Source: a virus. Taken from it: 23,896 bases of DNA. The stretch spans positions 1 through 23,896 of the IMG/VR virus record IMGVR_UViG_3300028597_000072. One strand, 5' to 3'. The translations under genes and the position numbers were made by a program. This document shows, one piece after another, positions 3,725-16,541 of this stretch; position 1 is the first letter of the stretch, and each line of letters starts with the position of its first letter. Under the pieces are notes generated by a model. It had not been told where the DNA came from and did no database searches. It saw only the letters and a list, made by a program, of their open reading frames with translations.

Positions 3725-4399
3725 TCAGAGCGTACTGACGAACTGCGACTGGAAGCCTTTCACAAGTTTGTTGTTGACCTTGTGGAGGCATTCGATGCGC
3801 AGGATCTGACCATCGCTGTTGATGTCCAGGCCTCTGTTCGGCTCGAACTGACGGTCGCCGGATTTCCACATGACGTAGGAATCAGGCTTGCCGATACCTA
3901 CCGGCCAGATGATGCCCATGTAGAGGTCACCCAAGTTCTGCAGACGCTTGGCGTAGGGCTTGAAGTAACGCTCTACGTAGTTCAGCTGCTCGATGACGGT
4001 CATCTTGGCAAGCTTGGCAGTGGTAGTGCCCAGACCTACCGCAGTGGCTTCCATGAACTGGATGAGGCCAGTAGCGGTGGACTTAGGGTTACGTACCGAC
4101 GGACTGAAGGTCTCGCCAGATTCCCACGCCATGCACGCCATGAGGTCGATGATCATCGACTTCGGCAGACCGAGGTTAGCAACCACCTGAGCTACCTTGG
4201 CGATTTCAGCATCGGTCAGCTTCTTACCCCAACCCAGCTTCTTCACACCGTACGGATGAGAAGCGTCGATAGCCGAGGCTTTGAGTTGATCGAGAGCGCC
4301 TTGGGAGTTCTTCCCCCATTTACCGTCAGCGATGCCGCAGTTGAAGCCGAGGGCGTTCAGCATCTGCTGGGTTTGCGTTACAGTGAAGTCACCAGCCAT
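3725..4399 (-). CDS. Endolysin: peptidoglycan-binding domain plus lytic transglycosylase domain
   Basis: A 224-residue muralytic enzyme. The N-terminus (about 6-40) is a PG_binding_1-type repeat (TQQMLNALGFNCGIADGKWG...SQGALDQLK). Residues about 75-165 form a lysozyme/SLT-like catalytic domain: ACMAWESGETF with probable catalytic Glu93, then STATGLIQFMEAT (108-120), the family's G-L-x-Q-F segment, and YVERYFKPY (141-149). It would cleave the MurNAc-GlcNAc bond. The same order, binding domain first, is known for phiKZ gp144 and EL gp188. There is no signal peptide or membrane anchor, so it needs a holin or must be carried in the virion. ATG at 4399 follows AGGTG. It is the last gene of the fibre operon, eight bases after its neighbour. 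Confidence 0.88.
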   Translation of the reverse strand: MAGDFTVTQTQQMLNALGFNCGIADGKWGKNSQGALDQLKASAIDASHPYGVKKLGWGKKLTDAEIAKVAQVVANLGLPKSMIIDLMACMAWESGETFSPSVRNPKSTATGLIQFMEATAVGLGTTTAKLAKMTVIEQLNYVERYFKPYAKRLQNLGDLYMGIIWPVGIGKPDSYVMWKSGDRQFEPNRGLDINSDGQILRIECLHKVNNKLVKGFQSQFVSTL

Positions 4400-4407
4400 G
4401 TTGTCAC

Positions 4408-5031
4408 CTACACGTTTCGGAGTTTGTCCAGCGCGACGTGCACTGGATCGAACCGCCCACTCGGCAGGTCGAGTACGTCAATGTGGCCAGGAGTGCCATT
4501 CTTTTCGTAGTCGATGCTGAGGTTCATGCTGGTCCGAGACAGAGGTTGTCCCGACACGGCATTGAAGACGGCTGTGAGACTGATCTCCTTGAGACCAGCC
4601 CAGGACGCCATGGTCGATACGAAATACTGCGCCTGAGTAATCTTGTCCAACTTGTCCTCGTCTTTGAGACGAGTAGCGTCAGCAGCCAGATAGTTCGAGG
4701 TGAAGCTTTCGATCGCCCAGTATTCAGCCATGATCGGATCAAGGACCAGACCACGGGTGAAGGCGTCAAACCAGTTACCGCCGCCCGGCGCTACCAGCAA
4801 GGTGCCGGCAGCGTATTGAGCGGCAGTGGTGGGTTTGGTGTTGTAGACCATGACCTGATATTCCAGGACACCCACCGCCGCCTCAGGGCCTACGGTTACC
4901 CAGCGAGCAGCGTGGATGCGTGCGTATTTTGCCGGGTTGGTTTTCTGCGAGAGGAACAAACCGCGGTCGATGGCCACGTATGGGTTCGTGGTCTGGACGT
5001 TGGTTGGCGTTGGTGGAATTTCATTGGCCAT
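4408..5031 (-). CDS. Unknown probable virion protein between fibre genes and endolysin
   Basis: A 207-residue protein: Pro/Thr/Asn-rich N-terminus (NEIPPTPTNVQTTNPYV), a central mixed region with a Gly-rich loop (LLVAPGGGNWFDAF), and a C-terminal part (about 145-207) predicted beta-rich (SLTAVFNAVSGQPLSRTSMN, then HIDVLDLPSGRFDP). No membrane helix or enzyme motif seen. It does not carry the C-terminal signature of the six fibre paralogs upstream. Location, tight spacing (8 bases to the endolysin gene, 13 from the last fibre gene) and AAGGA ribosome-binding site place it in the late structural operon. It could be an assembly factor or a small tail component. Not recognised. Confidence 0.75.
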   Translation of the reverse strand: MANEIPPTPTNVQTTNPYVAIDRGLFLSQKTNPAKYARIHAARWVTVGPEAAVGVLEYQVMVYNTKPTTAAQYAAGTLLVAPGGGNWFDAFTRGLVLDPIMAEYWAIESFTSNYLAADATRLKDEDKLDKITQAQYFVSTMASWAGLKEISLTAVFNAVSGQPLSRTSMNLSIDYEKNGTPGHIDVLDLPSGRFDPVHVALDKLRNV

Positions 5032-5044
5032 GGGTTACGGTCCT

Positions 5045-5788
5045 TTAGAGCGGATTCCACGTACTCGGGAACTTGGTAGGCGCGTCGATAGTGCCGCCAG
5101 TAACCGGGATAACAGAACCCAGTGGAGTGGTCGAGAGACGGAAGGTGTCGATACGGGTTACCGGTGCGAAATTCAAACTAGCAATTCCACTAGCATTAGT
5201 CGTCACCGTACCGATGAACATTACCGATACCGATTCAGGGGGAGAATCCACCCGAGCCTCGTACGTCACTTTGCCGAACCGAGCACGCACGTAGACGTTG
5301 AAGGTCTTGTTACCTGGGGACGCTTCCACACCACGCAGGTCAAGGCTGAAGGTCGGCATCGTGTACGGCGTACCGGACAGGATGATCTTGATGGTGCGAT
5401 TACACGACACCACCCATCCGGCACCGACCCAGGCAGCAGCCACTTGAGCGGCTGACAAGAACTCGATCACCCCGTAGGTGCTAAGCGGTAATACTGAGTT
5501 TGGCACTTTCGTTGCCAGCTTCGCGTTGACCGCAGTAGCGCTGTACGAGCCGATGGTCTCCATGGTCTCCTGGTGAGGGTTGTCGCGTCTGGCGGCGTGA
5601 GCCGCCAATGCGTCGCGAGCCTTCTTGAGGAGCTTGGTGAAGTTCCAGTCTGGGACAAGCAGTCCTGCGTCTTTCGACTCGAACGCGTTGTCCCGTTTGA
5701 TCTGAGTAAGAATCCTGACGATCTCGGCCTGATAGGCTTTGAACTTCTGGATTCTTAACAGGACGCCTTCTGTGATTGGACCAGCCAT
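5045..5788 (-). CDS. Small tail-fibre-like protein (unit B, fourth gene)
   Basis: A 247-residue protein with three parts. A helical N-terminus (KFKAYQAEIVRILTQIK) leads to the fibre motif HAARRDNPHQET...GSYSATAVNAKL and VLPLSTYG; the NPH-x-x-T element recurs in many phage tail fibres. A middle beta region follows. The C-terminal ~100 residues (KTFNVYVRARFGKVTYEA, IGTVTTNASGI, VTRIDTFRLSTTPLGSVIPVT) end in W-N-P-L. That end-domain is shared with the other five fibre genes of this locus. The positional counterpart is at 10110-10808. No membrane segment. ATG at 5788 follows GAGGT. Likely a small fibre, tip or assembly subunit; which of these cannot be told. Confidence 0.72.
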   Translation of the reverse strand: MAGPITEGVLLRIQKFKAYQAEIVRILTQIKRDNAFESKDAGLLVPDWNFTKLLKKARDALAAHAARRDNPHQETMETIGSYSATAVNAKLATKVPNSVLPLSTYGVIEFLSAAQVAAAWVGAGWVVSCNRTIKIILSGTPYTMPTFSLDLRGVEASPGNKTFNVYVRARFGKVTYEARVDSPPESVSVMFIGTVTTNASGIASLNFAPVTRIDTFRLSTTPLGSVIPVTGGTIDAPTKFPSTWNPL

Positions 5789-5796
5789 TCGTTACC

Positions 5797-6480
5797 TCAC
5801 TGGAACCAAGTAGTCGGGATGGAACCTGCGGCTGCTTGAGTGCCGGAGGAGTGGGGGATACCGTTACCGCGGACAGTCGAGGAGAGTACGGCTGCGCCAA
5901 TACGCACCGTGCGGACGAATGTCGGCACCCAGGCGCTACCTGACCAATCGAACCACCCAACGATCATGTTCCTGGCATCCTCAGCACCGCTCGCCGATAC
6001 GGCAAATGCTGCGACCTCAGCAGGACCGATACCGGTAACGACAACCTTCAGATACATGCGAGCAGTGCCGGACAGTGTCACAGGACCTGCTGGTACACGC
6101 AACTTACGGCCGAAGTAAACGATGTCTAGGTTGTTGGGTGTATAGATAGAGGCCGAGGTGAAGCTCCCTGCCGGAGCAGGGATCTTCGACAGCGGGACAG
6201 CGTCCTTCGGGAAATAGTTGACCGCCTGCGCTTCGAACGTGCCGGTGGTCATACCGCCCAACTGAGCCAGGGTCTCGCCGTGAGGCCGTACCTGACTCGT
6301 GTGGTTACCGACCTCACCCTTGATGATAGCGATGAGGTCGGCGAGGCTATACCCATTGATCTTCAGCGTGTTGTCGGCATGCTTTACGATCGGAGCTACC
6401 CGCTTCAGCAGCCTGATGATCTCCGCTTTCCAAAGATTGAACTTGGTAACGAGATATTGTCTCAGTTCTGCGTCAGTCAT
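5797..6480 (-). CDS. Small tail-fibre-like protein (unit B, third gene), most diverged
   Basis: A 227-residue protein. The N-terminus is helical (LWKAEIIRLLKRVAPIVKHADN). The usual NPH motif is replaced by NHTSQVRPHGETLAQLGGMT, and VPLSKIP replaces LPIxxYG. The C-terminal beta domain (RMYLKVVVTGIG, MIVGWFDWSGSAWVPTFVRTVRIG) keeps the signature GNGIPHSSGTQ and ends W-F-Q. Its counterpart is 10821-11534, from which it has drifted most. ATG at 6480 has only a weak GGAAA site but starts two bases after the stop of the large fibre gene, suggesting coupled translation. Likely a structural fibre component or chaperone-like partner. Confidence 0.7.
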   Translation of the reverse strand: MTDAELRQYLVTKFNLWKAEIIRLLKRVAPIVKHADNTLKINGYSLADLIAIIKGEVGNHTSQVRPHGETLAQLGGMTTGTFEAQAVNYFPKDAVPLSKIPAPAGSFTSASIYTPNNLDIVYFGRKLRVPAGPVTLSGTARMYLKVVVTGIGPAEVAAFAVSASGAEDARNMIVGWFDWSGSAWVPTFVRTVRIGAAVLSSTVRGNGIPHSSGTQAAAGSIPTTWFQ

Positions 6481-6482
6481 GG

Positions 6483-9434
6483 TTATTTCCAGTTGAGGCG
6501 ACCGTAGGAGTTCGGCGTACCGGAGGTAAGCGGGATCGAGGAACCGCGTGCATCCGGCGACAGCATCTTCCCGTCCACAGCAACGCGCTTACGCACGTTA
6601 ATGAGGTTCAGGCCGGTGGCGTTGGTGGTGAAGTAACCGAGGTACAAAGCCGGGCTTGCAGGCGGTTGGTTGGACGTGCCAATGGAGTACACCAGCGAGT
6701 CGCCGCTACGCACCAGCCAGACGTGGAACGTTTTATTACCGTCGGTCGCTGGGTTCAGGTTGTAGTTCATTGGAGCAACCACATCGTAGAACCCGTCCAG
6801 CATGGCTGGGGTATCATCCGCGAAGTAAACCGTCCACGCACTGACCACCCGTTGCGACATCATCACGAAACCGTAGGCTGGATCGACTACCCTGCTCCTC
6901 AGTTCGTTGACGTTCAGCGTCGACATCGCATTGTCGGCAAACAACGTAGCGACCATCTTCGTACCGCAGTCAATTTCCGAGTAGATAAACTCGGAAGACA
7001 GTACGAAGTAGAGACCCTTGCTGGGCAGGTTCACCCAACCAGCTGGGGCTGTGCCGTTCCAGTAATCCCAATAGACGCCGCCGTTAACCGCCCAGACACC
7101 GCCAGCGCAACGCAGAGCCAACATAGCTCGACCGCCGTTACCGACAATGTGGTACGAGTGCTGGGCAGCGTAACCCACCATGAACCCGCCGCTCACTCGA
7201 CGAATTGCCACCTGACCGGAGTCAGGGGCATTCATCAGACCGAGGCTGGTACCGATGGTAGCGTCGTTACGGATAATCAAACCACTGCTAGGCTGGATAG
7301 CTGCACTGGTCACGTTCTGCCGACTACCGGCGAGCGTCGCGTTGTAGACAAACATCCACGTAGTACGTTCTGCCCCGAGACCCGATACGATAGAACCCAC
7401 AATGAACGGAGACATGTCCGTGTATACTTGCGGGATGATCAGCTCGAACGTGAACTTACTGAAGCTACCGCTGACTTCGGGACTCGGCGTATATCCCCGA
7501 CTCTGAAGGTTAGCGAGTAATTGGGATTCCAGGGAGTCCATCACCGCAGTCGGCACAGTCACACTACCGGACACGCTCATGTCTGGGTTAACCACTGCCG
7601 CTCGAGTGATTCGTTCAGGGTTCCCGCGACTGAACCGGGCCTGCGATGTGCGCGATACCCCAGGAGAGCCTTCGTTCAACAACAATTGCCAGTTAGTGGA
7701 AGGGTGACCTAGCGATGGCTGGTCGTAACGTTCGGCTGTTGGCGGATATCCTTTCCAAGCGTAGTCGCCAGTTACCGACGAGTACTGGAAGGTCGGGTCA
7801 CCAACCAACGCACTTCGCACGTAGTACGTAGTGGCTCCGTATGGTGCGGGTAAACGCCCAAAGTTCAAACAGTTTACTACGTCATCCCCGACGTTGGAGA
7901 CGCTGCGCATAGACGCAGTCAGGGCAGAGCCGAACTTACCGACCGGCTGAACTTGACCGTGCTCCGTCCAGTCGTGGAATCCAGCCAATACTTCAACCGG
8001 ATCGGCGTTAACATCGTACTGGAAACGATGCAACCACATACTTCCAGTACCGGTCGTGTAAGACACCACTGTCCACATCCAGAGCTGGTTGTAAACCGTC
8101 GAGTAGATAGAGTCAGTAGATTGACTGTTCTGAGAACGTTGGTGGCTATTGTGCAGATAGTTGTTGAACGACGCGGACGCCTGCAGGTGCCATCCAGTCG
8201 AGTCATAGATCATGCGGATCGGATCGTTGTGATACTTAGACACATCGATTTGCTTGTTCTCGTTAAACTCAAATGAGAAGTAAGCGTTACCACTGCTGAT
8301 CGAGAACATGTTGTCGCTCGGATACCACTGTAGGTACCAGTGTCCGAATATACCGGTGGTTCCGTCGTCTCGAGTAAGCGCAGTGGCCATTGTGGAGCCG
8401 TTGGTCGCAAGGACGGTGGTTGACGGTGTGCCGGTATTGATGGTCGCGCTGGCGACATCGTCGTAGATAACGATGTCGTCACGTACAACGGTGCCGTTCG
8501 CGCCGCGGTTCATGGTCCAGCCGGTGATACGAGTAGCGCTAGTGAAGTTGCCGGTGATCAACTCGTTCTTGTTCAGGCGCCATACACGGTAACCGATCTT
8601 ACCTTCACGATGTAGATCATGCAGGATGTAGACGTAGTTACCTTTGATGAAACCAAACGGCGTATGGTAGATGCCTGGCAGAGGACCTTCCATTTTTAGG
8701 AAGTTACCGTTGGGTACGAAAATACCGGTGTGCTTGGTTTGGTCCATCGTGTTGTTGGTCAACGAGATGAAGTAACCAGTGTGCGCACCGGTAGCTGCGT
8801 CCTTCATGAGACCGCAGATAACGTCCTGGGTACTGCCGAGGATAGCCTTGGCACGCATGTTACTCGGGAAGTACGCTGGACGATACTCCACGTTTGACAT
8901 CATCAGGTTCTTTGTCAGATCCGTCTCAGTCATGGCGTTACGCAGGTACGAGTAATAGATGCCCGCACTGTCGCCGTCGGTGCCTGGACGAAGGATCATC
9001 AAGGTACCGTTGTCTTCGAGCATCATCGCAACGCGGTTGTACGGCGTGGTGTTACTGCCGGACTCGAAGGAACCAGTTACCGATGGAGGGAGGAACTCAC
9101 GGTCGCCGTAGAAGTCCATCGGGATGCCGCTATCCTTATCCAGCATCAGATCGAAACGACCATCGTACTCAGCCTTGTTGTAGCTGCCAACCATCCCCGC
9201 GTTGAGGTTGTGGACGTTCTGACCAAGAGCTGTAGTGTGCTTCGTAACTTCTGCCAGCAGCAGCGCTTCTACTTCGGCTGGAGTCTTGCCCCCTAGCGTA
9301 TCCGCGGTCTCCGCGTACTCGGCGCTCTGAGCTTTCTTCTTCAAGGCGGCTTCGAGACCTTCCTTGAACTCGGTCATCGAGTCTTCGACTTCAGCGATAG
9401 TCTCAGCAATGATAGTGCTAGAGGACTTCGACAT
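6483..9434 (-). CDS. Large tail fibre / receptor-binding protein (unit B)
   Basis: A 983-residue protein. The N-terminus (1-75) is helical with the fibre motif TLGGKTPAEVEALL, then QNVHNLNAGMVGSYNKAEYDGRF. The long middle is beta-rich with many short strands and aromatic residues (FLPPSVTGSFESG, MLEDNGTLMILRPGTDGDSAG, YFISLTNNTMDQTKHTGIFV), suggesting a beta-propeller-like or beta-helical shaft and binding region. The C-terminus (KTFHVWLVRSGDSLVYSIG, LGYFTTNATGLNLI, GSSIPLTSGTP) ends W-K. The first ~300 residues align by eye with the 976-residue protein at 11538, and so does the end. No catalytic depolymerase motif recognised. ATG at 9434 follows AAGGGAT. Most likely binds the host surface. 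Confidence 0.8.
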   Translation of the reverse strand: MSKSSSTIIAETIAEVEDSMTEFKEGLEAALKKKAQSAEYAETADTLGGKTPAEVEALLLAEVTKHTTALGQNVHNLNAGMVGSYNKAEYDGRFDLMLDKDSGIPMDFYGDREFLPPSVTGSFESGSNTTPYNRVAMMLEDNGTLMILRPGTDGDSAGIYYSYLRNAMTETDLTKNLMMSNVEYRPAYFPSNMRAKAILGSTQDVICGLMKDAATGAHTGYFISLTNNTMDQTKHTGIFVPNGNFLKMEGPLPGIYHTPFGFIKGNYVYILHDLHREGKIGYRVWRLNKNELITGNFTSATRITGWTMNRGANGTVVRDDIVIYDDVASATINTGTPSTTVLATNGSTMATALTRDDGTTGIFGHWYLQWYPSDNMFSISSGNAYFSFEFNENKQIDVSKYHNDPIRMIYDSTGWHLQASASFNNYLHNSHQRSQNSQSTDSIYSTVYNQLWMWTVVSYTTGTGSMWLHRFQYDVNADPVEVLAGFHDWTEHGQVQPVGKFGSALTASMRSVSNVGDDVVNCLNFGRLPAPYGATTYYVRSALVGDPTFQYSSVTGDYAWKGYPPTAERYDQPSLGHPSTNWQLLLNEGSPGVSRTSQARFSRGNPERITRAAVVNPDMSVSGSVTVPTAVMDSLESQLLANLQSRGYTPSPEVSGSFSKFTFELIIPQVYTDMSPFIVGSIVSGLGAERTTWMFVYNATLAGSRQNVTSAAIQPSSGLIIRNDATIGTSLGLMNAPDSGQVAIRRVSGGFMVGYAAQHSYHIVGNGGRAMLALRCAGGVWAVNGGVYWDYWNGTAPAGWVNLPSKGLYFVLSSEFIYSEIDCGTKMVATLFADNAMSTLNVNELRSRVVDPAYGFVMMSQRVVSAWTVYFADDTPAMLDGFYDVVAPMNYNLNPATDGNKTFHVWLVRSGDSLVYSIGTSNQPPASPALYLGYFTTNATGLNLINVRKRVAVDGKMLSPDARGSSIPLTSGTPNSYGRLNWK

Positions 9435-9453
9435 GTTGGTTTATCCCTTTGGT

Positions 9454-10098
9454 CTATTGGATCGCAGCCAGCTCAGTAGCGCCCGCCTGGAAGCAGTCGG
9501 CCAATTGCTTGGCAAACAGATCAAACGAGTTGAACTTGTCACCGACCTGCTTGAGGAGCAGTGCGCGAGATGCAGCATCGCCCTCACGAATCGCATTGGC
9601 CACATCGATCTGAGCTTCCACGACGTACTTCATGCCGTAGAGATCGTAAGCGCTGTGCAGGTGAGGTGCTGGCACGAACTGCGATGGCACGCCGATGAGG
9701 TCGCCCCAGAACACAGGACGGTCGTCGTTCATCAGCTCTTCGATCGCTTGCTTGAGCGCATACGTCGAGAACGAGAACTCGCCACCGACGTATTGTGCAG
9801 TCATCAGAATAGTGGTGCTGACGTTAGGGTTGGTGATCCGCACTGCGGTGTAGATCGCCTGACCAGTACGAGCAGTCGCTTCACGATACAGATGGACAAG
9901 TGCGTAGTCGTCGTTAGCAACGAGCGTACGGCCGGTGACGCCGTCTTTCAGGATGATCGAACCGCCGAAGAACGGACCGTAGTCCGCTACGAAGATCCGA
10001 CCCTTGACCGTTCCGATCGTGTGACTTTCGTCAACGACCTTGTTGGTCGAGCTGGTGCCGAGGAGGTCCAGCGGATATTTGAAAATGGTGTCAGCCAT
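9454..10098 (-). CDS. Tail fibre connector/baseplate-proximal protein (unit B)
   Basis: A 214-residue protein starting MADTIFKYPLDLLGTSSTNK. The N-terminal half (GPFFGGSIILKDGVTGRTLV, YREATARTGQAIYTAVRITN) is a beta domain of a kind common in large-phage virion proteins. It continues into WGDLIGVPSQFVPAPHLHSA (131-150), the W-x-x-I-x-G-x-P-x-x-F-x-P-x-x-H-x-H element typical of tail-fibre proteins, whose paired His can bind metal in T4 fibres. The C-terminus is helical. It is paralogous to 14485-15216. Start chosen at ATG 10098, with GAGGT five bases upstream and alignment to its paralog; the frame is open further up to 10446, but that would run back through the preceding gene. It probably attaches the downstream fibre to the tail. 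Confidence 0.75.
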   Translation of the reverse strand: MADTIFKYPLDLLGTSSTNKVVDESHTIGTVKGRIFVADYGPFFGGSIILKDGVTGRTLVANDDYALVHLYREATARTGQAIYTAVRITNPNVSTTILMTAQYVGGEFSFSTYALKQAIEELMNDDRPVFWGDLIGVPSQFVPAPHLHSAYDLYGMKYVVEAQIDVANAIREGDAASRALLLKQVGDKFNSFDLFAKQLADCFQAGATELAAIQ

Positions 10099-10109
10099 GA
10101 TGACCTCAA

Positions 10110-10808
10110 TTAGAACCAGCCAGCCGCGAGCGTCTGACCATTGTTTGGAGTACCTACGGTTACAGGGACCGCAGAACCGATCGGAGTGGCTGACGTACGA
10201 TAGGTATCGATACGAGTCACTCGGTTGATGGCGATAGATGACACCGCGGAAGCTCCGGTGACAATCCTGCCGATCCACATCCGAGTGGTGGTCTCTGCCA
10301 AGTCCTCGGTGCTGAAGAAGTAGCTGGTGACCGAACCGTTGAAGCGGACGTAGACGTTGTACGCGGTGTTCGGCTGCAACGTCTGACTGAACGCAGGTAG
10401 TGGTCGAGAGTACCCCATCATGACGGCATGCACCTGCGCCGGCCACGTTACGGTCAAACCGCTAGAGGTTACGCTGATTGCCGTACCGTCAAGATCGCCA
10501 TACCGAGAGATCGGCAAGATCCCTTCGGGGATACGGTTAGCCAGACCCAAGTCTACGTCGCTACTCAGCATACCGCCCACAAGCGCTGCCGTTACCCCAT
10601 GGGGGTTTTGGTAGTTCGTGATGTGGGTGTTGGCAATCGCCCTACCGGCGTTGACGACGCTGGTCGACGTATCGCCGTTCTGCATCGCTAGTGCGTTATC
10701 CGCGGCTAGCGACGCTTTAGGCTTGCGGGACAGGAGGTCTAGGACCTCCGTCTTCATCGCATTGAACTTAGCTGCCATCTGTGCAATGGCGGTAGTCAAG
10801 GCGCCCAT
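10110..10808 (-). CDS. Small tail-fibre-like protein (unit A, fourth gene)
   Basis: A 232-residue protein with the locus plan: helical N-terminus (AKFNAMKTEVLDLLSRKPK), motif THITNYQNPHGVTAALVGGM, ILPISRYG, a short beta region, then the shared end-domain (AYNVYVRFNGSVTSYFF, MWIGRIVTGASAVSSIAI, VTRIDTYRTSATPIGSAVPVT) ending W-F. NPHGVT is the classic form of the tail-fibre motif. Its counterpart in unit B is 5045-5788. ATG at 10808 follows an excellent GGAGGT at 5 bases. It may be a minor fibre or a cap protein that pairs with the large fibre through the common end-domain. No membrane or catalytic features. Confidence 0.75.
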   Translation of the reverse strand: MGALTTAIAQMAAKFNAMKTEVLDLLSRKPKASLAADNALAMQNGDTSTSVVNAGRAIANTHITNYQNPHGVTAALVGGMLSSDVDLGLANRIPEGILPISRYGDLDGTAISVTSSGLTVTWPAQVHAVMMGYSRPLPAFSQTLQPNTAYNVYVRFNGSVTSYFFSTEDLAETTTRMWIGRIVTGASAVSSIAINRVTRIDTYRTSATPIGSAVPVTVGTPNNGQTLAAGWF

Positions 10809-10820
10809 ACTCTACCTCCA

Positions 10821-11534
10821 TTAAGGCTTCCATCCACCTGGGATGGAAGCGGTTACAGTTGGTAGGCCTGAGGTGTACGGAATCGCAGCACCAATACCTA
10901 CGCTAGACAGCCTGAAGTTATCGAGCTTGGTGACCTTGCTAATCGCAATCGCCGAGATCGCCGAAGCTCCTACGCTGACGGTGCCGATGTACAGACGATT
11001 GAAGCTATCGATCTGGAATGTGTCGTACAGCTTGTAGGTCGGCGCACCGCCGACGATTTCGGCGTACACGTAGAGGGTCTTACTCCACGGTGAACTTACA
11101 TCGTCGGTGATCAGCTTGTTGATCGCAGGCATCAGGTAATACCGACCCCAAAGGATTAGAGGAACCTGCGCCGTTATTCTCAGTGTGGTGCCGGTGTATG
11201 AAGCCGGCAGAGCTGAGTTGTCGAGCGATCCGTACTGACTGACCGGCAGTGTATTGACCCGCACCAGAGCGTTTACCTTTGCATTAAGCTCAGTATCGGT
11301 GTACGCAGTAAGGATCGTACCGTTCAGTTTGTGGGGGTTGTCGGTCCGCGCAGCATGGGCGGTCGTCAACGTATCGACGTCAGCTTGCATCTGCGCGGGA
11401 GTGCGGTTGTTCAGATGAGGTGAGTCATCCGACAACTCAACTGCGGTCGGCTTCTTCGACAGAACGCGAACGATCTGCTGAGTGAAGTCGAGTACTTCCG
11501 CTTTGAGCGTGTTGAGCTTATCCTGGATCGACAT
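10821..11534 (-). CDS. Small tail-fibre-like protein (unit A, third gene)
   Basis: A 237-residue protein. The helical N-terminus (LNTLKAEVLDFTQQIVRVLS) precedes LNNRTPAQMQADVDTL and HAARTDNPHKLNGT, then TLPVSQYG and a beta-rich middle. The shared end-domain (KTLYVYAEIVGGAPTYKLY, LYIGTVSVGASAISAIAI, VTKLDNFRLSSVGIGAAIPYT) ends W-K-P. Its unit B counterpart is 5797-6480. ATG at 11534 lies three bases after the stop of the large fibre gene, with GGAG 7 bases upstream, so translation is probably coupled. Structural role inferred from family motifs and position only. Confidence 0.75.
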   Translation of the reverse strand: MSIQDKLNTLKAEVLDFTQQIVRVLSKKPTAVELSDDSPHLNNRTPAQMQADVDTLTTAHAARTDNPHKLNGTILTAYTDTELNAKVNALVRVNTLPVSQYGSLDNSALPASYTGTTLRITAQVPLILWGRYYLMPAINKLITDDVSSPWSKTLYVYAEIVGGAPTYKLYDTFQIDSFNRLYIGTVSVGASAISAIAISKVTKLDNFRLSSVGIGAAIPYTSGLPTVTASIPGGWKP

Positions 11535-11537
11535 GAA

Positions 11538-14468
11538 TCAACTCCATGCGAGCTTGTCGGCATTGCGAGGCAGACCGGTAGATACCGGAATGGCCGAGCC
11601 TTTCGACGTGGCGCTGAATCGGAAGTTACCAAGCCTGGTCACTTTCTCTGCAGCGATGGAAACGATTTGCGTGGCGTTGGTTACGATGGTTCCGACCAAG
11701 AGAGTGGTGTTACTTTCAGCAATCGGACTAGTGGCGATCACGTATTGAGCAACGTCGCCAAACACTCGGACGTAGACGTAGAACGTCCTGTTGGAGGCAT
11801 CGGTCATGACCGTACGCAAGTCAATACTACTTACCGGCAGGACGTAATACGTACCGTTGATTACCACGGGGGTTTCTTCGGAGAAGTACACGACCCAGCC
11901 TTCAGCAGCTTTCTGGGAAGCCAAACACGTCCACGTCTCTTGTGGCGATGCCGACTGACCGGTCCATGCAGTGAACTCAGCGACCGTAGTACCGATCGGT
12001 TGGAAGTTCAGCTTGGTGGTTTCGTCAGAGTAGCCTCCGTTACCTTGGGTGTTCCAGAAGAAGCCGAAGCCCAAAGTAGGATGGCCAAGGAAGTGTCGCC
12101 CAGTGCCGCCAGAGTATACGTTGTACGACCGGTGCGAATAATCATCACGGTGCAGAAACGCCTGCGCCGATCGATTGTAACGGAAGCAGAACGACGGTTG
12201 AGGCGAACCGCCCGGAACCTGCATGTAGCCGGCCATGCTGATGCCGATGAATACATCGGTGCCGATGTCATACATCGCACAAGGACCGCAATACAGAATC
12301 CCGTTCGCCGTCATCTGCACGCCAAAGGCAGTGCCATTGGTGTAAACGTATTTCGGCGTATGGGGTGTGCCTACAGATACCGCCGTCACGTTACCGGAAC
12401 CGTCTCTGGTTACAGTTACGGGACAGATGGTCACGTAGTTATTGCCATTATCACAAACACCCAGGTAGGCTACAAACGGAGGCACCCCGTTACTGGCCGG
12501 AATGACCAGCTCCGCCGTCCATTGCGTAGTGGTAGGTTCACCAGCCGCTGCCAGCTTCGATGCAATCTGGTTACCTACACCTTGCATTATGGCGTTGGTT
12601 ATCGATACCTGAGTACCTAGGACCAGGTCTTCGCTAATCGATGCCCGGCCGTCTAGACGACTGACGGAAGAGACTCCGGTTTTCGCAGCAATGAACCGCT
12701 GCGTGTGAGTGAAGAACGAACCTGTGGCCGTTACCTCGTTGACCGGGGCTTTGTACTCCTCGTCATTAAGACCAAGGTCAGTTAGGAAGTCACGCACCGG
12801 CGACGGTTCGTAACCTTTGATAGACCCTCGATAGATCGACGCGTAGTTGTAAGTCGGACCGCCTTCCAACGTAGTGCGAACGAACCCACGGCGCCAAGCG
12901 CCGGCCGCGGTAACTCCATCAGCGCAGAGATACAGTTTGGTGGCCGACAGCATTACAGCGCCATGGATGCCAGAACCGATTGCCGTACCGAACGATGGAC
13001 GAACAGCAACTCCGGACGCTGAACCGATGTTAGCAACACCGCCTTCGAGAGCGGCGTACTTAGTAGTGAAATTGACAACCTTACCGATCCACATATTCAG
13101 GTTGTCTACCACGTTCGTCAGCGAGTAACGAACTACGTTACCGAAGTCGTCGTAAGCGTAGCTGTTCTTGTAAGGGTTAGCTGTAGCCAGCTTATCCAGA
13201 ACGTTGCCGTCAAACAGCGGACCTGCGTAGGTCGGTGTCGGTACGTCGTCGGTGACCGTACTCTCGCCGGACAGGTAATGCGGATCTAGTGTTACGGACT
13301 TGGTAGCCGGATCGAACACGAAGCTGAAACCACAGGCGCTGTACGGCGCGGCGCCTGTGGTAACTAGTCGAGCTTGGTGGTAGATTTTTGTACGGATTTT
13401 TCCGGTAGCTTCATCCATTGCTGAGACCGGCGTACCGCTGTAGTAGTACATGATCTGCAAGAACGTGAACCGGGTACCAATCTGACGACACATCGGGTTA
13501 TCGGAAGCGAGCTGACTCACCATCTTGTTGCAGAATCGCATCCGGTCAAGGTTGGAGTAGTTGACACCGCCAAAACCTTTGGTAGTGATTCCGGTCATCT
13601 GCGTGAACGTCACCTCGCCGCCACCTGCCGCTGCGAGAGTTGCGCGCGGGATGGTGTACACAGTGATGTCATAAGGCGTCGACATGTTGCTGAGGGTCAG
13701 TGTGATGTTGTAGAAGTAGACGGTGTTGCCAGCTACGAACACCTCACCGCCTATTTTGATCCAAGCATCACCCACTGCCTTAGGGATGATCCCGCCGACG
13801 TGTTTGGTGGCGTCGTAGGTCCCGTTGGTCAGCGCTACGAAGTAATCGCCAGGTACTCCAGCCGAGTCCTGCAACTGACCAACGATTACCGACTGACTCG
13901 AGTTGAATACGGCAATCGCAGTAGTCCCGGGTGGGAACCAGCTGGGCTGGTAACGTCGACCAGTCCTGGTAGGTTGACCCACCTTGTTGGTAGCACCTTC
14001 AAGGAATGCGTAGAACACACCCTGACTTGCGCCGTCGGTACCATTACGCAGATAAACAGCAGTGCCATCGTCTTCGATCATGATGGCGGTGTCGATGTAT
14101 TGTAGACCAGACGTACCGCCTTCGAAGCTACCTTGAATGCCGGGCGGCAGATAGTTCTGCGTGCCATAACGCGCGATCGGCAAAACGCCATTCGGCATTA
14201 CCGTCGGTAGCAGGGCGTCGTAGGCAGCTTTGGAATGGATGCCCACCGAAGTGAAGGTATCGTTGTGCACGTTACCTTGTAGCGCTGCGTGATCGTCGGC
14301 TGCCTTACGGACTTGCTGAGCCAGTTGGGTCGGAGTCAGACCACCCACGAGCTTGGTCTGGTCTGCCGTACCGGCCGTCTTGCGTTTACCGGTGGAGACT
14401 GTCCCCACCAGGGTAAACAGCCGATCCATAGCCGCGCTGAGCGCGGCAAGGTTATCAGTCAAACTCAT
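11538..14468 (-). CDS. Large tail fibre / receptor-binding protein (unit A)
   Basis: A 976-residue protein. N-terminus: coiled or helical (DNLAALSAAMDRLFTLVGTV), then LVGGLTPTQLAQQV (40-53), QGNVHNDTFTSVG (64-76) and VLPIARYG (95-102). The large middle is beta-rich (YLPPGIQGSFEGG, MIEDDGTAVYLRNGTDGASQG, YFVALTNGTYDATKHVGGII), homologous to the protein at 6483 over at least the first ~270 residues and the last ~110. C-terminus: RTFYVYVRVFGDVAQYVI, LLVGTIVTNATQIVSI, GSAIPVSTGLP, ending W-S. No enzyme motif is apparent. ATG at 14468 follows AAGGAA. Possessing two such diverged fibres suggests two receptors or a branched fibre. Confidence 0.8.
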   Translation of the reverse strand: MSLTDNLAALSAAMDRLFTLVGTVSTGKRKTAGTADQTKLVGGLTPTQLAQQVRKAADDHAALQGNVHNDTFTSVGIHSKAAYDALLPTVMPNGVLPIARYGTQNYLPPGIQGSFEGGTSGLQYIDTAIMIEDDGTAVYLRNGTDGASQGVFYAFLEGATNKVGQPTRTGRRYQPSWFPPGTTAIAVFNSSQSVIVGQLQDSAGVPGDYFVALTNGTYDATKHVGGIIPKAVGDAWIKIGGEVFVAGNTVYFYNITLTLSNMSTPYDITVYTIPRATLAAAGGGEVTFTQMTGITTKGFGGVNYSNLDRMRFCNKMVSQLASDNPMCRQIGTRFTFLQIMYYYSGTPVSAMDEATGKIRTKIYHQARLVTTGAAPYSACGFSFVFDPATKSVTLDPHYLSGESTVTDDVPTPTYAGPLFDGNVLDKLATANPYKNSYAYDDFGNVVRYSLTNVVDNLNMWIGKVVNFTTKYAALEGGVANIGSASGVAVRPSFGTAIGSGIHGAVMLSATKLYLCADGVTAAGAWRRGFVRTTLEGGPTYNYASIYRGSIKGYEPSPVRDFLTDLGLNDEEYKAPVNEVTATGSFFTHTQRFIAAKTGVSSVSRLDGRASISEDLVLGTQVSITNAIMQGVGNQIASKLAAAGEPTTTQWTAELVIPASNGVPPFVAYLGVCDNGNNYVTICPVTVTRDGSGNVTAVSVGTPHTPKYVYTNGTAFGVQMTANGILYCGPCAMYDIGTDVFIGISMAGYMQVPGGSPQPSFCFRYNRSAQAFLHRDDYSHRSYNVYSGGTGRHFLGHPTLGFGFFWNTQGNGGYSDETTKLNFQPIGTTVAEFTAWTGQSASPQETWTCLASQKAAEGWVVYFSEETPVVINGTYYVLPVSSIDLRTVMTDASNRTFYVYVRVFGDVAQYVIATSPIAESNTTLLVGTIVTNATQIVSIAAEKVTRLGNFRFSATSKGSAIPVSTGLPRNADKLAWS

Positions 14469-14484
14469 GTCGGAAGTTCCTTAC

Positions 14485-15216
14485 TCAGAGCGCGCCGAGT
14501 TGGTTAGCCGCCTGGGTGTAAGACGCAGTCATGGAATCGATCAGCTCTTCCAGATCCGCAATACCGGCCCCGCCACCTTCGATCTCGAGCAGCTTGGCAT
14601 CGATCTCATCTTTGGTATAGTAGAGGTTAGGTAGCAGCGGTGGATTAGCCAACCAGTCCCGAGTGCGCTCACGAATGGCAGCGGCCACGTCGTAGGTAGC
14701 AGCAATCAGCTCGGCAAAGCCGGTCATGTCGTCTGCAGGGTGGGTGTGTTCGGTAGGCGGGAATACTTCCGGCTTACCGTTCACTTCCTCGAAGGTCACC
14801 TGACGCGGGTCGGCGATCTTGTTGGACATGATCTCGAGAATCTTGTTCTCGCTGAGCGTCCAGGCACCACCGAGGGTCTGGTAGGAGTCCATACGGACCT
14901 GACCACCCAGCGTACGGTCGAACAGCAAGATGGAAGCATAGACGCCACCCTTGGTGTTCTGTAATTCGTAACTGGCGCTGTTGAATCTATGCCCAGGCGC
15001 CCAGTCCACACCGCGGATCAAAAGGCGGTTGGTGGTGATGTGGCGCAGGACCATGGTGTCGCGGAAGTAAGGACCGGCCCATGGCAGCAGGAAGTGGAAG
15101 TCGAGTTCCTCTTGAGGCGGGTTCAGCGTACGGCTTTCATTGACCACCTTGTTGGTTGCCGCCGCACCCGTCAGGTCAAGTGGGTACAGATAATCGAGGG
15201 GATTGGCGCTAGCCAT
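14485..15216 (-). CDS. Tail fibre connector/baseplate-proximal protein (unit A)
   Basis: A 243-residue protein. It has YLYPLDLTGAAATNKVVNES (10-28), a beta-rich N-terminal half (WAGPYFRDTMVLRHITTNRL), and the tail-fibre element EVNGKPEVFPPTEHTHPADD (144-163) with H157 and H159 as a possible metal pair. A C-terminal helical or coiled tail (KDEIDAKLLEIEGGG, ADLEELIDSMTASYTQAANQ) ends near where the large fibre begins. It is paralogous to 9454-10098, 29 residues longer, mostly in the C-terminal helices. ATG at 15216 is the first gene of the long minus-strand operon. Likely docks the fibre to the baseplate. Confidence 0.76.
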   Translation of the reverse strand: MASANPLDYLYPLDLTGAAATNKVVNESRTLNPPQEELDFHFLLPWAGPYFRDTMVLRHITTNRLLIRGVDWAPGHRFNSASYELQNTKGGVYASILLFDRTLGGQVRMDSYQTLGGAWTLSENKILEIMSNKIADPRQVTFEEVNGKPEVFPPTEHTHPADDMTGFAELIAATYDVAAAIRERTRDWLANPPLLPNLYYTKDEIDAKLLEIEGGGAGIADLEELIDSMTASYTQAANQLGAL

Positions 15217-15290: not shown

Positions 15291-16541
15291 ATGTACACTT
15301 GCCAACGTGCGCTACTCCGCCCTCGTGGCGCAAACCAGAGGCTGATTGAAGCGCAGGTGGGTAACAGCTATCTGCGTAACTTGGTAACCGAATACGACGT
15401 CGCATACCTCGTCCTCAAACACCCAGCTATCACTAATGAGGTCAGCCTCAACCTGATGGAGATCTTGGATACTGTTTATAGTGTCCTCGAAAACGTCACG
15501 GTCGATGATTGGCTGGTGTCTCTTGGCGATGCTAGCTTGCCAACCTCCGCTACGGTGCCTAAGCGCCAAGCAGGCGTTGCCAAGTTCAACGATGCCTTCT
15601 CGGCAGGCTACATCTTGAACCGCGTCCATCCGACAGCAGGCGAAGGTAACGAGTATCCTGATGAGGATCTCACCGACATCCTGATGACCAAGCCGGAGAT
15701 GAACTACGAGCTGTTGTATCGCAACTGTTTGGTCAACGTGAACGGGCTGTTCCACATCACCGACTACTCGACTCGTGGCCTGCGTATTAAGGATGCTGGT
15801 CGCAGCACCTACTTCGCCAACAACCACGACATCGGGCTGATCAGCTTCCTCGATGTGGGTAAGGTCACGGTGACTCCGATCACCGAAGCGATGATCAAAC
15901 CAAAGGGAACCAATCCCCTGAAGAACGGTTTCATCGTCCACATGCCGAAGATCGATCTGTCGAAGCGCATCGTCATGTTGTCGATCGGCGGCTATCTGCA
16001 CTACGGTGAACAGCAGTACAGCGTCACCGGTGATCGCTCGATCGATGTGCAGTGGTACAACCTGCCGTTGGCTCAGCGCTATCACAACTCCAAGCATCTG
16101 ATCGATCTGTCGAAGTTCGACGATACGATGACCCGCAATCCGAACCATGGCGAAGCCTTGGATCTGAATCAGGCGAATACCGACGAAGCGATCAAAGCGT
16201 ACATGACGCTGAGTCAGTCCTTCGTGATCACCATCGAAGCGAGCAACCTCTACTACATGCGCCACGGTCTGGAGCGTACCAAGCTGCCGGGTCGCTACGT
16301 GTCCTACGAGCGTCCGCGCTTCCCGATGCAGCTCGAGAACGGTCTCATGCCGTCCTACATTGCGATCGTCGAAGATGACCTCTACTCGATTGCTGTGACC
16401 GACAACATGGTCAACCGTTACGTCGCTGACAAACAGCCGGTATCCGGTGACATGTACGACAACGGGGCCAGGCTATCCTCTGAACGACAGAAATACGCCT
16501 CGGCATATTTCCTGGAGTTCGGTACCGACTACCTAGCGTAA
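15291..16541 (+). CDS. Unknown protein, 416 residues (lone plus-strand gene)
   Basis: A soluble 416-residue protein, helical early (NLVTEYDVAYLVLKHPAITN, NLMEILDTVYSVLENVTVDD) then beta-rich (VNVNGLFHITDYSTRGLRIK, KRIVMLSIGGYLHYGEQQYS, SFVITIEASNLYYMRHGLER). No signal peptide, membrane helix or catalytic motif recognised. ATG at 15291 has GAGGTG five bases upstream. It is a single-gene unit: divergent promoter region on the left, bidirectional terminator on the right, lying between the fibre operon and the spike genes on the opposite strand. Size and setting suggest a conserved virion or assembly protein, but this is not demonstrated. Confidence 0.82.
   Translation: MYTCQRALLRPRGANQRLIEAQVGNSYLRNLVTEYDVAYLVLKHPAITNEVSLNLMEILDTVYSVLENVTVDDWLVSLGDASLPTSATVPKRQAGVAKFNDAFSAGYILNRVHPTAGEGNEYPDEDLTDILMTKPEMNYELLYRNCLVNVNGLFHITDYSTRGLRIKDAGRSTYFANNHDIGLISFLDVGKVTVTPITEAMIKPKGTNPLKNGFIVHMPKIDLSKRIVMLSIGGYLHYGEQQYSVTGDRSIDVQWYNLPLAQRYHNSKHLIDLSKFDDTMTRNPNHGEALDLNQANTDEAIKAYMTLSQSFVITIEASNLYYMRHGLERTKLPGRYVSYERPRFPMQLENGLMPSYIAIVEDDLYSIAVTDNMVNRYVADKQPVSGDMYDNGARLSSERQKYASAYFLEFGTDYLA

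Follow-up and report, generated by a model that had tools for sequence, protein, structure and literature searches.

Organization of the Locus

The window, the whole stretch of DNA that was analyzed, is a complete virus record of 23,896 bases and a fragment of a jumbo phage. Eight open reading frames, A1-A2-A3-A4-B1-B2-B3-B4, are closely spaced on its minus strand as two successive sets (A, 15216-10110; B, 10098-5045), all of them present as a sequence-only reading of this DNA had described. Each set consists of a connector (243 aa in A and 214 aa in B), a large fiber protein (976 and 983 aa) and two small fiber proteins (237 and 227 aa, then 232 and 247 aa). About ten other contigs also carry both full sets; this recurrence of the eight-gene order rules out an assembly artifact.

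In slot A, the connector A1 (14485..15216) is followed by the large fiber A2 (11538..14468) and the small fibers A3 (10821..11534) and A4 (10110..10808). In slot B, the connector B1 (9454..10098) is followed by the large fiber B2 (6483..9434) and the small fibers B3 (5797..6480) and B4 (5045..5788). Pfam and NCBIfam searches gave nothing usable for any of the eight proteins. In PHROGs, the connectors match phrog_2163 (A1, E 4e-40; B1, E 3e-61) and the large fibers match phrog_3573, A2 at full length (residues 43-975 of 976, E 1e-152) and B2 over residues 63-982 of 983 (E 1e-83). A3, A4, and B4 match phrog_26864 at E 2e-27 to 4e-19 (A3, 2e-27; A4, 9e-22). B3, the most diverged of the small fibers, reaches only E 0.02 against this family and joins the small fibers by profile comparison.

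The right-hand neighbors are a phiKZ gp130-like gene (15291..16541, plus strand, 416 aa; phrog_3337, E 4e-87), which serves as a locus marker in phiKZ-like phages, a gene for baseplate assembly (spike), and a gene resembling SbcC. This neighborhood matches that of cultured phiKZ-like phages, where the gp130-like homolog sits at the same place; the window itself had no megablast match among cultured phages. The locus is closed by X5 (4408..5031, minus strand, 207 aa), a conserved gene for which the libraries searched contain no matching family. X5 is kept in environmental contigs both with and without fiber cassettes. Between the related contigs 046542 and 049460 its product is 44% identical, though the flanks are 84-86% identical in DNA, and X5 may have been exchanged too. 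Further left, a small separate gene (3725-4399) matches the C-terminal part of baseplate hub/cell-wall enzyme families (phrog_196, phrog_4928), and the left end, beyond the locus, carries an ATPase-like gene (452-1552; phrog_2376).

An Ancient Pair of Connectors

In a tree of 57 connector domains, all A1-type domains fall on one side and all B1-type domains on the other, with support of 100/99. Ten cultured phiKZ-like phages (PhiPA3, Goslar, EaH1, Totoro, KpLz, Eowyn, DT01, FLC9, Special G, and pEa54) are placed in these clades, and both clades hold cultured phages of Pseudomonas, Erwinia, Escherichia, Serratia, Klebsiella, and Burkholderia. A1 is the ortholog of the N-terminus of PhiPA3 gp150 (phiKZ gp131), and B1 that of the N-terminus of PhiPA3 gp152-154; a search of bacterial genomes with B1 gave no match and so pointed to no host. 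The features of phrog_2163 connectors, namely an N-terminal domain of ~180 aa, a place beside a gp130-like gene, and the A1-then-B1 order, are all found here. The phiKZ gp131-gp135/PhiPA3 gp150-154 loci and the "YomR" pairs of PHROG 2163 are alike in this position, in the succession of A1-type and B1-type N-terminal domains, and in belonging to common clades. The sequences show A1 and B1 to be an old pair of connectors whose position is conserved. PhiPA3 has three B1-type proteins in a row (gp152-154; L043:9106-13374), a separate multiplication of socket B.

The two systems differ in how connector and fiber are encoded. In cultured phages, a longer fiber protein (433-872 aa in the phiKZ/PhiPA3 type) usually has the connector domain as its N-terminal part, whereas in the window group the domain is a gene of its own. 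No one-piece long fiber with an N-terminal connector is seen in the window, where A1 and B1 end at 243 and 214 aa and the fibers are separate genes; each connector is followed by a cassette that encodes three related fiber proteins, one large and two small. Both kinds of fiber are found fused to the connector in Erwinia phage Special G, in gp19 (connector 6-158, large fiber 269-1155) and in gp18 (connector 12-179, small fiber 239-420). Deimos-Minion gp19, which occupies the same place as Special G gp19, was detected by mass spectrometry of lysate with 10.9% coverage (PMC6690015).

In a connector model (single chain, pLDDT 66), the first ~110 residues resemble the N-terminal domain of T7 gp17 and collar domains of T5/DT57C (Z 5-6.5, second structure aligner), scores that are under the level excluding a merely common arrangement. 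Foldseek with this model gave no match under E 0.4, and it was the second aligner alone that returned phage attachment domains consistently. A connector HxH stretch matches the solved tail collar fiber 9d93 (E 7e-13).

Relationships Among the Fiber Proteins

According to the sequence-only reading, each gene of one set should resemble most the gene at the same position in the other. An all-against-all comparison of the eight proteins upheld this pairing for the first and second genes, gave a tie with a neighbor for the fourth, and contradicted it for the third. A1 and B1 are 30% identical (E 2e-23). A2 and B2 match at E 2e-35 by sequence, and their classes align profile to profile over 907 columns (E 8e-83), which is almost the whole length and shows that more than an end domain is shared. 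Chance resemblance was ruled out for both pairs (Z 38 for A1-B1, 89 for A2-B2). A4 and B4 match at E 2e-26. The best partners of A3 are A4 (E 7e-29) and B4 (4e-23), with A3-B3 at only 5e-4, and the best partner of B3 is A4 (6e-11). The profile scores (A3-A4 286, A4-B4 280, A3-B4 248, A4-B3 162, B3-B4 143, A3-B3 134) place A3-B3 as the weakest of the six small-fiber pairs. A2 scores higher against a fiber of Escherichia coli phage 121Q (276 bits) than against B2 (179 bits).

The small proteins, A3 among them, match the N-terminal (~115 aa) and C-terminal (~125 aa) parts of the large fibers and none of the middle. The eight-gene row therefore consists of one connector family and one fiber family, the latter with long and short members, distributed over two slots. 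Across the relatives, each positional class forms its own group, A3 weakly. Full-length relatives of A2 and B2 are the PHROG 3573 large proteins of 121Q, CBB, Serratia phage BF, PhiEaH1, and the Agricanvirus phages. In phage 121Q, a small relative lies between two large genes. Unlike in the window, no connector gene was found beside the PHROG 3573 genes of 121Q and CBB; in Special G gp19 the PHROG 3573 fiber is fused to the connector, which is separate in the window.

Predicted Fold and Variable Middle of the Large Fiber

The AlphaFold2 model of A2 (single chain, mean pLDDT 71) has a predicted β-propeller at about residues 113-500 (12969..14132, minus strand). The pLDDT is mostly 70-90 over residues 170-400, and TM-scores are low for a chain of 976 aa. 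The best matches of the propeller are six-bladed fucose lectins (Aleuria aurantia lectin, Z 12.3, rmsd 4.3 over 243 residues, second structure aligner), followed by sugar-cleaving propellers including the endosialidase of phage phi92 (Z 10.4). Foldseek with the A2 model found the host-recognition protein (RBP) of Staphylococcus aureus phage phi11 (E 4e-6), and predicted structures of CBB, BF, and PhiEaH1 proteins resemble the model over most of the chain (TM 0.64-0.72). A PDB sequence search with the large-fiber profile gave no match. From the model, the A2 propeller is predicted to be lectin/sialidase-like, and the fiber genes are probably concerned with sugar recognition.

The nearest relative, IMGVR 042136, is 98, 96, and 99% identical to the window in A1, A2, and B1, and 66% in B2. 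The difference in B2 lies in the middle (residues ~350-860; 6855..8387, minus strand), which is 35-67% identical, while both ends are 90-94% identical. The alignment indicates that the middle of B2 was replaced between otherwise near-identical phages, a pattern as of exchange of a receptor-binding part.

The Joint Between Connector and Cassette

The DNA of 046542 and 049460 is 84% identical up to about codon 174 of A1, with no identity over A2-A4. It is 74% identical over codons 1-191 of B1, shows little identity beyond, and is 86% identical right after X5.

At their C-terminal ends, A1 (SYTQAANQLGAL; 14488..14523, minus strand) and B1 (CFQAGATELAAIQ; 9457..9495, minus strand) carry a proposed fiber docking tail of the pattern, roughly, [YF]xx[AGS][AG]x[EDQ]L. 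The pattern is found in 20 of the 20 connectors that precede a phrog_3573 cassette and in none of the nine without one; it was written after seeing these sequences, and many of the rows are close kin, with about five independent changes behind the counts. The rule that links tail to cassette is accordingly offered as a hypothesis resting on those changes, with no statistic attached. The A1 protein of 046542 (L015:5186-6007) has the tail motif twice in tandem (SYTTAANQL ... TYNQAATDL). The C-terminal ends of A1 in L029/L031 and of B1 in L032/L033 are a common adapter (37-45% identical, E 1e-23 to 1e-29), despite N-terminal domains from the two old classes. These alignments demonstrate that the C-terminal end of the connector changes together with the cassette.

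Turnover of Cassettes in the Two Slots

The contents of the two slots vary among the relatives. In L021, a bare A1 is directly followed by B1; this A1 (L021:9137-9796) ends without the common tail, and its socket is apparently empty. Slot A holds a phrog_11065 protein in L029-L031 and a Gly-rich protein in L016, L032, and L033, and slot B holds a phrog_11065 protein in L032 and L033. The phrog_11065 protein in slot A of L029 shares 55% identity with the one in slot B of L032, which indicates that one cassette type has occupied both slots.

The Gly-rich proteins of slot A (L016:8457-9206; L032:9156-9977; L033:9127-9930) are gp38 adhesin-like, and those of L032 and L033 have a conserved start, the rest being glycine-rich and strongly variable. 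The L032 protein resembles gp38 (PF05268, E 8e-4) at a score of 19.7, below the Pfam cut-off of 25, and matches phrog_2056, "host specificity," at E 2e-4. This recalls gp37/gp38 (GP38) of the T-even phages; the window itself has no gp38-like adhesin.

Among 18 relatives, as read on a core-gene tree (a quick search, with long cultured rows), slot A underwent at least three changes of state and slot B at least two, gain and loss not being distinguishable. In these genomes, cassettes have been acquired, lost, and exchanged for others, and the junctions fall close to where the connector domain ends. Comparison of the A2, A4, B2, and B4 trees with the core tree suggests that the fiber genes of 046542 were transferred from a window-like phage; naming the donor was ruled out, the identities (41-61%) being too low.

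A Proposed Pair of Sockets for Two Fiber Complexes

The locus probably encodes two sockets for two independently evolving receptor-binding fiber complexes, carried by a contractile tail of the phiKZ type. A1 and B1 would be anchored to the baseplate or tail through their conserved N-terminal domain and would dock the fiber with their C-terminal end, and the propeller of the fiber would bind or cleave a sugar on the surface. The small proteins, lacking the middle but retaining the end parts, would be short fibers or partners on the same socket. Both fibers would be present on each particle, so that one particle would have two separately evolving specificities. The earlier proposal of two different fibers on one tail, kept under long selection, agrees with the separate group formed by each positional class, with the receptor-type features, and with the connector-fiber fusions. 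The receptor-type features are the predicted propeller fold, the swapped center of B2, and the gp38-like adhesin in the same slot of a relative; that there are two receptor specificities is inferred.

A more specific account, plausible with nearly even chances, is a phiKZ-like plug-and-socket arrangement: the two sockets on one tail would be anciently duplicated, and each multi-gene fiber cassette would supply, at the 3′ end of the gene for the socket, a short docking tail or adapter of its own, so that whole unrelated sets could be installed in either socket, taken out, or moved from one to the other.

The three fiber genes, not the connector, could instead have been block-duplicated within the phage group behind the old connectors, with later exchange and drift blurring the relationship; we regard this as possible though doubtful. 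It differs from the two-socket explanation in origin only, not in function. The three-gene plan and the connector tail are common to both cassettes; cultured phages including pEa54, Goslar, and EaH1 carry a single set, flanked by connectors of the A1 and B1 types; and AU tests do not reject the groups A3+B3 (p 0.32), A4+B4 (p 0.28), or A2+B2 (p 0.54). However, the trees do not establish A2/B2 or the small genes as sister groups, and separate capture from two phages fits equally.

A role as structural decorations (whiskers, or neck or tail ornaments) or as polysaccharide-degrading enzymes, and not as receptor binders, seems unlikely. It would agree with the filing of phrog_2163 under head and packaging as a virion structural family, with the likeness of the connector fold to T5 neck/collar proteins as well, with the resemblance of the propeller to sialidases and other sugar-cleaving enzymes, and with the hairy tail appendages known in phage CBB, which has three phrog_3573 genes. 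CBB_147-149 are absent from the mass-spectrometry table of CBB, although the record calls two of them structural, and the table is given no weight here. Against the decoration or enzyme reading, a gp38-like adhesin lies in slot A of a relative, variation in the middle and the turnover of cassettes are characteristic of host-range parts, and an enzyme on a fiber would still be part of host recognition.

It is very improbable that one tandem duplication copied the whole four-gene module, followed by drift: the order and sizes are the same, pairs 1, 2, and 4 match well, and the AU tests leave the paired groups standing, but the connector split is older than the fiber sets, A3-B3 is the weakest small pair, A2 is nearer to the fiber of another phage than to B2, and slot A is without the set in several relatives. 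The earlier view that a four-gene module was duplicated from a common plan thus does not hold as worded, because the connector pair also occurs in phages with one fiber set or none and cassettes come and go independently of it; nor do the data demonstrate one duplicated four-gene block, since the third genes fail the pairing test.

Comparison with Branched Receptor-Binding Complexes

The branched complexes of CBA120/Ackermannviridae (TSP1-4), RaK2, and phiKp24 have several fibers per particle, conserved N-terminal docking, and exchangeable receptor parts (PMC10253068, PMC9700779). The proposed two-socket arrangement would be alike in all three respects. The complexes of CBA120, RaK2, and phiKp24 branch via T4 gp10-like domains, and no match to such a domain is listed for the window proteins in Pfam, PHROGs, PDB sequences, or folds.

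Implications for Host Recognition

Host recognition by phiKZ-like jumbo phages is poorly known, and a recent review treats it only in general terms (PMC13282480). The removal or replacement of whole fiber sets and their exchange between sockets, as traced in these genomes, are likely a way to change the bacteria that are gripped. The locus names likely receptor-binding genes of phiKZ-like phages, in two separate exchangeable slots, and the joint is predicted at connector residue ~175-190 and its C-terminal tail.
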